From contig JACZXB010000008.1 of the NCBI GenBank assembly GCA_022571845.1, forward strand, positions 1 to 64,000: a DNA stretch of 64,000 nt, read 5' to 3'. The notes under the pieces are model-generated. The model saw only the letters and a program-made list of their open reading frames with translations. It was not told the origin of the DNA and ran no database searches. This document shows, in pieces, positions 44,301 through 48,203 of this stretch (the first letter of the stretch is position 1; every line of letters starts with the position of its first letter). This DNA is from Candidatus Zixiibacteriota bacterium (GTDB lineage: Bacteria > Zixibacteria > MSB-5A5 > GN15 > FEB-12). The position numbers and the translations under genes were made by a program.

Positions 44301-44957
44301 TCAGGTGTGCATAACAATACGTCTAACTGTGCCTCTTACGAAGATACTGACCCGGAGATACTTTTGAAATTCTTGTCGGCTCGCCTTTATGGAGGCGGCG
44401 GAGCGCACTCAATGTTTATGAAAACCTGGGGTGCGGGGCTGGCTTATTCCAACGGACTCAGAAGTAACGAAAAAGACGGTCGTTTAGTGTACTATGCCGA
44501 GCGCTGTCCTGACCTGGCTCAGACAATGCAGTTTGTAATAGACCAGCTGGAAAATGCCCCCTATGACCCGTCGCTGGCTGACTATGCCGTATCGCAGGCT
44601 TTCGCCGGAATTCGATCAGGGTCCACTTATGATTCGCGCGGCGAAGCGATGGCGGCTGATCTGGCCGACGGCCTGACGCCTGATGTTGTCAGACGATTCA
44701 GAAGCAGCATATTAGAATTGCGAAACAGCGATGACCTCTATGACAAACTTCACAAGCGCATGGCTTCAACTTATGGCGAGGTTCTCCCCGGCTATGGCCC
44801 GACAACCAGAGAAGCCAATGAAAAGTCCAATGCTATTATTTTTGTGATCGGACCGGAAAAACAGCTGACCTCTTATGAACAATATTTGAAGAGTGTAGAA
44901 AAAGATGCTATACTTCACCGCATTTATGCCAGAGATTTCTGGATAGTGGCGGATTAG
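41385..44957 (+). CDS. Large exported M16-family (pitrilysin-type) metalloprotease
   Basis: A 1190-residue protein when started at ATG 41385, which is preceded by AAGGACG and begins a signal peptide (MTNISKALFALCLTFVLVTP). The zinc motif HxxEH is HTLEHLLLG; the distal Glu is in KGTVYNEMVSSFERPW. The remainder has the repeated ~230-residue modules of M16C enzymes such as presequence protease, with the typical hinge. These enzymes enclose and degrade short peptides. Exported versions in FCB bacteria probably clear peptides in the periplasm. The longer frame to 41298 lacks a ribosome site. Confidence 0.87.
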   Translation: MTNISKALFALCLTFVLVTPAFSKITLKDLTEDQRVASFETEAVYLNQDGRRIGARFRHIPSRFVLDILRIQSLPQTFIWVNTPPPTDQGEPHTLEHLLLGKGTKGRYVASLEEMSLGSSSAFTQQIRTCYHFNTSAGSETFFNLFEAKLDVMIHPNYSDEEIRREVRNMGVAVNNEDGSKYLEEKGTVYNEMVSSFERPWGNLYFNLLKNVYGDGHPLSYSAGGLPSAIRTMQPEDIRNFREKYYHLDNMGAVVSIGDEISLADCLGSLSKIFDRIEPDSKAGADPAEFAASLPQASPQEQGKITTVTFPNKNENEPGLLVYAWPAEREMGLKEYLLFNLFVENLSSGQTSNLYKRFIDSQTRLLDIGASSSFGWISDHPGQALFIGFSNVSRDATGAKMIDSVRSVLLKEIKMISSFADNSPELLEFNERLRSLSINNKREIKKFLNSPPRFGYRGTGSRWFDHLQLLKDEKEFERDVSGQAAFAFVDQMLDSKTNFWQEYITNWKLLSTIPFGIATHPDPEMLTESENSREKRIDDYVVELQKKYEADSKEAAIEIYEKEYAKKTEIIDAEAATIEMPPFVENPPLTLDDQLNYTVEKLPGGGDCVYSRFDNISSTTVGLVFNLYSVPESLLVFLPVLPTVMTQIGVIKDGQTISFDEMNQAIKRDILGLNAYFSTGNRTERVGLTVEAAGGDKTETEKALNWLSTALFSPNLSEANLPRIRDAVDLRLKSLRNRMRGSEESWVNEPMYAYWRQHNRLFLSARCFLTQAHLVHRLRWMLKSASDPDQFIFFEKFMGLLSSELARLKREQVQTLLSALSSTDNETDPMQPLALMHGAAPDDAKQLLTDAFNDLTQILSDIPDNSLSRDLVYLCSQITADLKKTPAEALGSLNHLLDIIRHQDNVRAYIVSNEENNKIAMRKLTDIVSRLADGEVERYSYNSSPLINNRLSERTPLLSKPVCFGLVNENTRSGVHNNTSNCASYEDTDPEILLKFLSARLYGGGGAHSMFMKTWGAGLAYSNGLRSNEKDGRLVYYAERCPDLAQTMQFVIDQLENAPYDPSLADYAVSQAFAGIRSGSTYDSRGEAMAADLADGLTPDVVRRFRSSILELRNSDDLYDKLHKRMASTYGEVLPGYGPTTREANEKSNAIIFVIGPEKQLTSYEQYLKSVEKDAILHRIYARDFWIVAD

Positions 44958-44986
44958 GAAGTATTGGTAAAATTGAGTTGGCAGTT

Positions 44987-45026
44987 AAAAAAATGGCCTG
45001 ATTCAAACGAGTCAGGCCATTTTTCT
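44987..45026. terminator. Strong bidirectional terminator
   Basis: The 12-bp stem AAAATGGCCTGA (44990-45001) / TCAGGCCATTTT (45012-45023), flanked by A and T runs, lies between the convergent protease gene and the DUF3179 gene. Confidence 0.9.
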
Positions 45027-45045
45027 TGAAATTTGTAAATCTGAT

Positions 45046-46005
45046 TTATTTTATAAGTTCAGTTTCCGGAAAGAAACTTACCCAGGCAAACCAGTAGGCG
45101 GAGATAACAGGAAATGCCCTGGCAGTCTGATTATTGATTTCTATCTTGCCGGCCAGCCTTAATGAATCCGGCAAAGCAAAAGCAACTACGGACATTTCGG
45201 ATTCATCGTATGATAGATAGATTCGCTTTGAATCATTTACTATCAAAGCAAAACCGTTTTTCTTAAGATAACTTTCAGCGACTGCGAATTCGCTATTTTC
45301 AAAACGAATGCCATAGACCTTATCTTTGCCGGCCAGCTTCTTGAAATTATCGACTCTGCCAAAAATGCCCAGTTTGTCTTTGTCGGCAAAGTAAGAGTCG
45401 TAAGTAGAACCGGCCTGACCATCGGCGGGCTTCTTTAACAGCTTACCTTTTGGGTACTGCTCTTTAAATGCAGCGAAAGTAGTATGGCTAAAAGGGACGG
45501 TCTTGAGTTTGGTGCCTTCCATTTTACCCTGAATACATATTCCGGAAATTTGAGACCAGAGCGACTTGGTTTCCAAATCCTGCATGACCAAGGCGTCCTG
45601 CCAGAGTGATCCGGAAGCCTGAAAAGTGTAACGTTTATTGTCGATTTCGGCGGCATAAACTATGCCGGTAAAGCAAAGTGGTCACCAGGTTACGGCGATG
45701 GCAGCACCGCCAATCTGTTCGTTTACGATTTCATGGTGGTCCAGATGCCAGGTGCTGTAGCCGCGGGCATCGTCACCTCTGACCACAACCAGCAGCGGTT
45801 CGTCGGCATAGTAAGTGCTTTCTGCCTCACTTACAGAAACGAACTCCGGCTCAAAAATTGCCGGTATGCCGCCGGGTTCGAGCAAAGTATACATGGTGTG
45901 TCCCTGTATCTCTGTTTGTTTTAGCTCCGGCCGCTGTGCCAATACTGAGCTGGTCAGCAGCATGGCGAACGGCAGCAAAAGAACTGATTTGTATGATTCA
46001 AACAT
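45046..46005 (-). CDS. DUF3179 protein, candidate selenoprotein (TGA at residue 108)
   Basis: Read through one TGA (45682-45684), the frame gives 319 residues of a complete DUF3179 protein with a signal peptide (MFESYKSVLLLPFAMLLTSS, start ATG 46005 after AAAGGAA). The blocks before and after the TGA belong together: HHEIVNEQIGGAAIAVTW, then PLCFTGIVYAAEID, ASGSLWQDALVMQDLETKSL and WSQISG. In the neighbouring paralogue the matching segment is AITYCPLTGSALAW, so the TGA replaces the conserved Cys and gives U-P-L-C, a redox-like UxxC motif. A hairpin suited to a bacterial SECIS follows (45651-45667). I infer selenocysteine. DUF3179 has no proven function. A gene caller would split this into 46005-45682 and a false C-terminal gene from 45591. 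Confidence 0.85.
45651..45667 (-). promoter_or_regulatory. Candidate bacterial SECIS hairpin
   Basis: On the coding strand the 7-bp stem CGGCATA/TATGCCG closes a 3-base loop GTT. The loop begins 21 bases after the TGA and its first base is G. This agrees with the published general rules for bacterial SECIS elements (small loop with a G in its first two bases, 16-37 bases from the UGA). The hairpin is within the coding sequence (codons for TGIVYA). Seen by eye; no folding energy was computed. Confidence 0.7.
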
Positions 46006-46122
46006 TTTTAAATTCCTTTCTCTGCCGAATAAGAAATCGAAATAGGTCAGTTTACACAACAATAATTTGGGCAATCACATTTACGAACCAGGATTATTTC
46101 CTCCAATATCCTGAGCCTCGAT

Positions 46123-47208
46123 TTAAAATATGTCGAGAGCAGGATAAAATGCAGCCAGAGCAAACCAATAAGCAATAAATGATGTAGTGGTAGTTAGCTG
46201 TTGGCCTGCTCTCGGACCGCTAACCGCCACTCCAAAAATATCCCATTTGTTGCCTTCGTTATCCTCAAGGATAATCGGCAGCGCGTTTTGAACTGCCTTA
46301 AATGTCAGCACAGAATCGTCAGCCAATTTACGACTAAAGACAACCGCCAGATTCTTACTGCTGCTTCCGGCGGCAACTACCGGCAGACCGTTAAAATCAT
46401 GAACGAAGATACTAACGCTGTCGGCAAAGTCTGAAATTCGATATGCCAAAGCGTTTCCATCGACAATTAAACTTAGCACGCGTTCCTTGCCCGGAAGTCT
46501 TGAGTCGCTATTTGATACCGGAAAAAGCAGTCGAAATTGATTTGTCCTGTAATCACCGTAAGGATAACTGCCATAGGGTCGCGAAAATCCAGTGTTGGTA
46601 GAAACTACCAATGTATTGGGATACAATTCTTTCCAAGTTTTCCAGGTTGTTTCGACAATATTAAACAATTGCGGTGTTTCGCCAATTAGCTCACCATTGA
46701 CACACTGCAGTCTCATCTGTGACCAGTTGCTCTGCGTTAATCTGTCATACGGGATAAGATTAGTGTTGTACAATAATCCCGAGACGCCAAAAGTCGTTTC
46801 GGTTCCATTTATAGTTCTGTTCCAGGCCAGGGCGCTTCCCGTAAGCGGACAATATGTAATAGCAAAAGCATTGGAAGCGATCTTGTCATTGATGATTTCA
46901 TGCCAATCTAAGATAGGATGCGGATAAGCCCTTACAACATTCCCCATTTTAATACCGACGACCAGATCAACATCTGATAGATATGAATTGGCAGGATCAT
47001 CTGCCGCTATCAAAGAGGGCTTATCAACTGAGGGAATGCCGTCCCGCCCGGGGCCTCCGTCAAAGACTTCGTTCACCGGTATTAACCAGGCTGAAGGGTC
47101 TGAACTTGCGCCTCCTAGTGAAGAACTATCATCGTCACTGCAGCCCGAAATCAAAAACAGAACTATGAAAACGAAAGCTGCTCCGAAAATGTATTGCTTT
47201 TTCATCAT
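46123..47208 (-). CDS. DUF3179 lipoprotein (cysteine form)
   Basis: A 361-residue lipoprotein (lipobox ISGC, Cys 23); ATG 47208 or the next Met are both possible starts after AAAGGAG. The DUF3179 core is complete: VVRAYPHPILDWHEIINDKI, FAITYCPLTGSALAW with the conserved Cys120, FGVSGLLYNTNLIPYDRLTQ and SNWSQM, and WKTWKELYPNTLVVS. Only one Cys is in the motif (CPLT). The domain is common in exported proteins of unknown function near redox or electron-transfer genes. It lies 117 bases upstream of the candidate selenoprotein and directly after the barrel gene. Confidence 0.9.
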   Translation of the reverse strand: MMKKQYIFGAAFVFIVLFLISGCSDDDSSSLGGASSDPSAWLIPVNEVFDGGPGRDGIPSVDKPSLIAADDPANSYLSDVDLVVGIKMGNVVRAYPHPILDWHEIINDKIASNAFAITYCPLTGSALAWNRTINGTETTFGVSGLLYNTNLIPYDRLTQSNWSQMRLQCVNGELIGETPQLFNIVETTWKTWKELYPNTLVVSTNTGFSRPYGSYPYGDYRTNQFRLLFPVSNSDSRLPGKERVLSLIVDGNALAYRISDFADSVSIFVHDFNGLPVVAAGSSSKNLAVVFSRKLADDSVLTFKAVQNALPIILEDNEGNKWDIFGVAVSGPRAGQQLTTTTSFIAYWFALAAFYPALDIF

Positions 47209-47216
47209 TTACTCCT

Positions 47217-48203
47217 TTAGAATGGAAATTTTGTATCTTTATCTGGCGGTGCGATAGTATAGAATAGTGAAAACGAAACTGTGTAGCTGGTTGTAAGTTG
47301 GGTACCGTTCAACTTCCTGTACAGAGGCAGTTCGCCTTCGCCGCGAACTCCAAACCTTTCATAAACATTCAAATTAAGGCCGGGCACGAAATTCAGCCAT
47401 TTGCCGCCGCTATTGTTTACATCATTATTATCAAAGGCATCGGCCGTAGTTGATCTGTAGCGAAGTCCCAGATTGTAATTAATGCCGGTCATATGATTGA
47501 AATTAACGGCCAGCGAGGTTACCAGTTCATTGCCAAATTTGTAGCCAAGCGAACTTTGGCCGAACCTGTCATTGGTTCCGTTAAGCCGGTACGAAAAAGT
47601 TGAATATACCGTTATGGGAAATTTTGTAAATAATCCCTGCTGCGCATGTCCCCACAACACGAAATCCCAGGCCCCTGTACCGGGCTGCATATCAGCGGCT
47701 AACAAAATATTATTACTCTTGATATCCGATTGACCAACGGGTACTTTGACACCGCCGCCGATGGATAATTGTCTGCGGTTTCGGATTGACTGAGGTAAAA
47801 CGGCATACTTAAGCAAGAATAGACCATCACCGATTCCCCGGGTGCGTACTATTTCGCTGGTGACAAAATTGGAGGTGGTTTTGCGCTCCTGCTCCAGCAG
47901 AGTAAAAAACCCGGCTATAGAAAAACGTTCAGTCAAACCATAATTGATTTCGAAAAGTCCTGATTGCACCCGGCGACTGCGGACGTCATCATCTAATTTG
48001 TCACTGCCGCTATAAACATTTGTAATGGAACTGAATTCATAGGTCAGTCCGAAATGCCAGACTCCTTCAGGTGTCGAAGGAACTTCAAGGGAACTTAGAA
48101 GCGGCGCTCCACCGCAGCTGCAAGCCTGAGGCTTGACCGCTGAAGGCAGGTAAGTAATAACTCCGATTATCAAAACAATGGTAGAAATATTTATCTTTGT
48201 CAT
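47217..48203 (-). CDS. Outer-membrane 'transporter'-type beta-barrel with CSCGG motif
   Basis: A 328-residue exported protein with signal peptide and a first mature block ACSCGGAPLLSSLEVPSTPE holding two Cys. The remainder (WHFGLTYEFSSITNVYSGSD, FEINYGLTERFSIAGFFTLL, LSIGGGVKVPVGQSDI, GYKFGNELVTSLAVNF) shows strands typical of MetA/phenol-pathway 'transporter' barrels (PF13557-like) and ends in SLFYTIAPP... with a terminal Phe. It is 8 bases upstream of the Cys-type DUF3179 gene in transcription order, so the three genes 48203 to 45046 are probably one unit. Its CxCGG may bind metal or form disulfides. Confidence 0.72.
   Translation of the reverse strand: MTKINISTIVLIIGVITYLPSAVKPQACSCGGAPLLSSLEVPSTPEGVWHFGLTYEFSSITNVYSGSDKLDDDVRSRRVQSGLFEINYGLTERFSIAGFFTLLEQERKTTSNFVTSEIVRTRGIGDGLFLLKYAVLPQSIRNRRQLSIGGGVKVPVGQSDIKSNNILLAADMQPGTGAWDFVLWGHAQQGLFTKFPITVYSTFSYRLNGTNDRFGQSSLGYKFGNELVTSLAVNFNHMTGINYNLGLRYRSTTADAFDNNDVNNSGGKWLNFVPGLNLNVYERFGVRGEGELPLYRKLNGTQLTTSYTVSFSLFYTIAPPDKDTKFPF

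Follow-up and report, generated by a model that had tools for sequence, protein, structure and literature searches.

A DUF3179 gene of Candidatus Zixiibacteriota with a conserved in-frame TGA is predicted to encode an exported selenoprotein

In the 64,000-nucleotide stretch of Candidatus Zixiibacteriota DNA that we analyzed (the window), the minus-strand interval 46005-45046 very probably constitutes one gene for an exported DUF3179 protein in which an in-frame TGA at 45684-45682 would be read as selenocysteine (Sec108); this high confidence applies to the selenoprotein assignment and excludes function. The original prediction, that this gene is a Sec-containing form, is supported by (i) the Sec machinery of the genome; (ii) conservation of the TGA among homologues; and (iii) conservation of the sequence downstream of it. 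Comparison of sequences establishes the single frame, the TGA kept at one codon, the covarying hairpin, selection past the TGA and the full set of Sec genes; Sec insertion in the cell, as well as the export and function of the product, we infer.

Results

A single DUF3179 protein interrupted by one TGA

Translation of 46005-45046 yields 319 residues with a sole internal TGA, at residue 108, in the context AVTW-U-PLCFTG. When genes are called under translation table 11, the interval is split at this TGA into two short ORFs, as had been anticipated. The proposal that these two same-phase minus-strand frames together form one full DUF3179 protein agrees with both the translation and the PF11376 match of the read-through protein (E 7.9e-62, 209.7 bits, against a curated cut-off of 27 bits), which is full-length, covering residues 45–315 and profile positions 2–292 of 292. 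Residues 1–23 are likely to be a signal peptide, and it is from our own reading of this signal-like N-terminal stretch that export of the product is predicted. Elsewhere in the window, a TGA breaks up thirteen further long frames, none of them, as judged by eye, in a comparable context; of all these frames, 46005-45046 is the one that was tested.

Immediately upstream lies a DUF3179 paralogue (46123-47208, minus strand; PF11376 E 2.3e-86, 290 bits) that carries cysteine, Cys120 in the motif YCPLT, at the Sec column. Alignment of the two proteins (26% identity, E 3e-26) confirmed the suggested correspondence between residue 108 and Cys120, and the in-frame UGA occupies a position at which homologues carry Cys or Sec. 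Eight base pairs upstream of the Cys paralogue, 47217-48203 (minus strand) encodes a probable exported or outer-membrane, barrel-like protein, for which no match was found in Pfam or NCBIfam; the sequence CSCGG occurs close to its N-terminal start. Genes of this type recur beside Cys-type DUF3179 genes in other genomes (neighbourhood cluster 2, 11 loci). The three co-directional genes probably form one operon ending at an inverted repeat with a T run, read from the sequence as resembling an intrinsic terminator (45025-44987, minus strand; AAAAATGGCCTGA...TCAGGCCATTTTTTT). An Rfam scan of 44900-47300 returned only a weak Thr_leader match that overlaps this repeat (44964-45026; E 0.21, with 23 bits where the gathering score is 55), and NCBIfam and PHROGs searches gave no match. 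Among the genomes of the phylum, a Sec gene directly beside a Cys paralogue is found in this genus only, and the neighbourhoods of the Sec copies revealed no shared partner widespread enough to hint at function.

The genome encodes the selenocysteine machinery

The source genome (2.75 Mb, 98.8% complete, a draft in 21 contigs) contains selA, selB, selC and selD, the set whose presence the original prediction had proposed to check. The tRNA-Sec gene scores 71.3 bits and was also called by ARAGORN as tRNA-SeC with anticodon tca; selA (E 3.4e-150) and selB (E 6.3e-99) adjoin on one contig; and selD was detected with an E of 1.6e-116. The selD gene (G000:C2:167049-167969) has an in-frame TGA of its own, in VSCAGUASKL, and SelD is therefore itself a predicted selenoprotein. 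Across the phylum Zixibacteria, selA was found in 119 of 132 genomes. In one Marinimicrobia genome that carries a TGA copy of DUF3179 (G132), no tRNA-Sec was found above the cut-off, perhaps because that genome is incomplete.

TGA recurs at the same codon in homologues

A six-frame PF11376 search of the 132 Zixibacteria genomes detected DUF3179 in 33 of them. Full-length copies are of two main sorts: high-scoring, stop-free copies with the motif YCPLT, and copies with exactly one TGA. In every copy of the latter group that was checked by read-through translation, the TGA falls on the WUPLC codon, and within the main Zixibacteria clade all WUPLC copies keep the equivalent of Cys111. All W-type copies with a readable motif have the TGA at this codon except one, a long-branched copy (L059, genome G098, about 1025-2110) that reads SPFSF at the motif, contains no TGA, has neither Sec nor Cys, and is possibly a non-redox paralogue.

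The TGA is also found at this codon in copies from Neomarinimicrobiota (WUPLC) and Acidobacteriota (WUPLA). The latter phylum (that of G134) contains dozens of DUF3179 copies with one TGA, and those that were read out have it at the same column, in UPLC, UPLA, UPLV or UPLT. None of the copies read has TAA or TAG at the Sec codon. Since separately assembled genomes share the TGA, 45684-45682 is not a sequencing error, which the original prediction had named as a possible refutation.

A hairpin downstream of the TGA covaries among homologues

The hairpin described in the original prediction, CGGCATA-GTT-TATGCCG, is present on the minus strand at 45651-45667, spanning 15–31 bases after the TGA, with a 7-bp stem and a GTT apical loop at 45658-45660. 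The distance of 21 bases given for its start is that to the loop and not to the stem; the stem starts after 14 bases and the loop after 21, so that the apical loop begins 22 nt after the UGA. In bacterial SECIS elements, the apical loop is located 16–37 nt after the UGA. In the position of its loop, the initial G of that loop and its covarying stem, the hairpin fits the rules for a bacterial SECIS, as had been proposed. By itself, it is only slightly more stable than its base composition would predict (z -1.9 to -2.3), and proof must therefore rest on comparison across homologues.

In an alignment of 34 sequences, 90.8% of the stem cells are paired and six of the seven pairs have changed on both sides; this degree of pairing was matched by none of 500 shuffles, and pairings slid along the alignment reach 18–50%. 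RNAalifold recovered the same stem unprompted, with six pairs. In a wider set, all six lower pairs are present in 40 of 41 Sec-type homologues versus none of 18 of the Cys type, and the first base of the apical loop is G in 41 of 41 Sec sequences. The pair that closes the loop, the seventh, persists in just 39% and is not counted as conserved for that reason. Among 251 codons, the four under the strongest synonymous constraint include those for Gly+6, Tyr+9 and Ala+10, all three of which have their third position in the stem.

Selection and evolution of the Sec codon

Over the 212 codons that follow the TGA, comparison with copies of the same genus showed 46–50 synonymous and 17–20 nonsynonymous changes, and purifying selection is similar before and after the TGA. 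The downstream sequence, for which decay had been named as a warning sign, is conserved; a pseudogene beyond the TGA is ruled out by this synonymous excess.

In a tree of 70 DUF3179 domains, computed with the motif residue masked, the W-type sequences form one clade (support 99/99), with Sec in 38 of 40. A Cys copy nested among Sec copies (L115, genome G319, WCPLC) is best read, from its position in the tree, as a Sec-to-Cys change among close relatives, the support for the fork being moderate. Sec also occurs outside the W-type clade, in the lectin-type group described below and in a Y-type DUF3179 (L109, genome G162, YUPLT; hairpin GGAGTAGTTTACTCC), and the position of this Y-type copy apart from the main Sec clade suggests that it acquired Sec independently. 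As the tree was rooted at its midpoint for drawing only, it does not fix the direction of the deeper Sec/Cys changes.

Lectin-dockerin proteins with the same TGA

In other Zixibacteria genomes, five candidates (L062, 2504-3850, minus strand; L065, 1661-2995; L066, 1607-3022; L067, 1634-3043; and L052, 664-1980) combine a signal-like start, a C-type lectin domain and dockerin-like repeats with a shortened DUF3179 domain. In these, the TGA occupies the same column, no Cys is close by (UPLQ, UPLK, UPIA), and a hairpin follows the TGA at the same distance. A further protein, L068 (UPLR), resembles this group and has no lectin match. No selenoprotein combining a C-type lectin domain with dockerin repeats was found in the literature searched, in which few subscription journals were covered.

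Structure and conserved residues

No solved relative of the Sec protein was found by sequence. Its AF2 model (mean pLDDT 88, pTM 0.86) is mostly beta, and a Foldseek search of the PDB with this model gave no match at E <= 0.001 (best E 0.12), a thioredoxin fold included. Apart from position 108 itself, the residues invariant across Sec and Cys forms include Leu88, Asp89, His91, Glu92, Asn95, Pro109, Leu110, Ser131, Gly132, Asp143 and Trp150. The lectin-type forms keep Glu92, Pro109, Ser131 and Gly132, and His91 is not present in all of them. We place the putative active centre around Sec108 and Glu92. The residue three positions after Sec varies among Sec forms (UPLA, UPLV, UPLT, UPLQ, UPLK and also R).

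Discussion

Other explanations of the TGA would have to account for this pattern. If the TGA were a real stop, the gene would be truncated, or a pseudogene of recent origin, next to an intact Cys paralogue. The two short ORFs obtained under the standard code and the adjoining paralogue would be in keeping with this reading, yet it is very improbable given that more than 25 distinct Zixibacteria copies, as well as copies from Acidobacteriota and Marinimicrobia, have TGA at this codon, that no copy read has TAA or TAG there, and that purifying selection is similar on its two sides. Nor does an error for TGC, TGT or TGG have any appreciable likelihood: nothing other than the draft state of the assembly speaks for it, whereas different studies have yielded many independent assemblies with the identical TGA. 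A frame that is open under another code does not in itself prove Sec, and the TGA might be decoded as Trp, Gly or another residue, either under an altered genetic code or by simple readthrough; however, TGA still terminates three ORFs of at least 250 aa in the window, relatives have Cys at this column and not Trp or Gly, the hairpin is specific to the TGA copies, and the Sec machinery is complete, so that we give non-Sec decoding, too, very little weight.

Under the selenoprotein assignment, a ribosome reaching UGA108 would meet the hairpin just downstream; this hairpin, in the role of a bacterial SECIS, would be bound by SelB, which would deliver Sec-tRNA(Sec), and after insertion of Sec at position 108 translation would continue to the end of the DUF3179 domain. 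The function that we consider most likely for the product, at about even odds, is that of a periplasmic or surface redox protein with Sec108 as its reactive selenol. The invariant Glu92 could assist Sec108, as could His91 close by, and in this copy a selenenyl-sulfide between Sec108 and Cys111 could form. This cannot be the general mechanism, as many Sec forms lack a Cys three residues on, and for the same reason a selenoprotein in which Sec108 binds a metal or forms a peroxidase-like centre with one selenol, rather than half of a thioredoxin-type pair with Cys111, is a serious rival. This reading would be in keeping with Cys111 giving way to A, V, T, Q, K or R in other Sec forms that retain Sec, Pro109 and Glu92, and also with a beta-rich model that matches no solved fold, thioredoxin among them. 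Against it stand the presence of Cys111 in every WUPLC copy from the main clade of the phylum and the retention of a Cys pair in the CPLC group, and we regard it as plausible but the less probable course.

More broadly, we tentatively suggest that DUF3179 is an old, largely selenium-based type of periplasmic or surface enzyme, with a fold that has no solved relatives and a Sec acting without a resolving Cys, and that part of it has been incorporated into secreted proteins of the lectin-dockerin type (UPLQ, UPLK, UPIA). If true, the latter would represent a selenoprotein architecture absent from the literature searched. Because standard annotation cuts these genes at the TGA, the exported selenoprotein is probably annotated wrongly where it recurs, in Zixibacteria, Acidobacteriota and other groups. 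The adjacent Sec and Cys paralogues of one genome, together with the nested Sec-to-Cys change, offer a comparison of what selenium contributes.

The protein resembles thioredoxin-fold UxxC/CxxU selenoproteins in having Sec and Cys two residues apart; it differs from them in that its model has no confident fold match in the PDB and that many of its Sec-containing relatives lack the second Cys. With the Cys-type DUF3179 proteins (YCPLT, YCPLC) it shares the domain and the conserved residues, although these have Cys at the Sec column and are without the SECIS-type hairpin; the YCPLT group moreover has no second Cys and, in Zixibacteria, adjoins the gene for the probable outer-membrane protein. 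PF11376/DUF3179, with the motif UxxC/T, already appears among the selenoprotein families in the tables of PMC9312934 and PMC13188914, the entry in the latter citing a study of the Olavius algarvensis Delta 1 symbiont; the entries give neither function nor SECIS alignment nor structure. The 'seleno' label mentioned in the original prediction thus proved right, and 46005-45046, with W-U-P-L-C, adds a member to a known family. As far as these tables describe them, the listed proteins and the present one have in common the Pfam family, Sec in UxxC/T and an exchange of Sec and Cys among homologues; in contrast to them, the gene described here comes from a different phylum, Zixibacteria, and adjoins a Cys paralogue.
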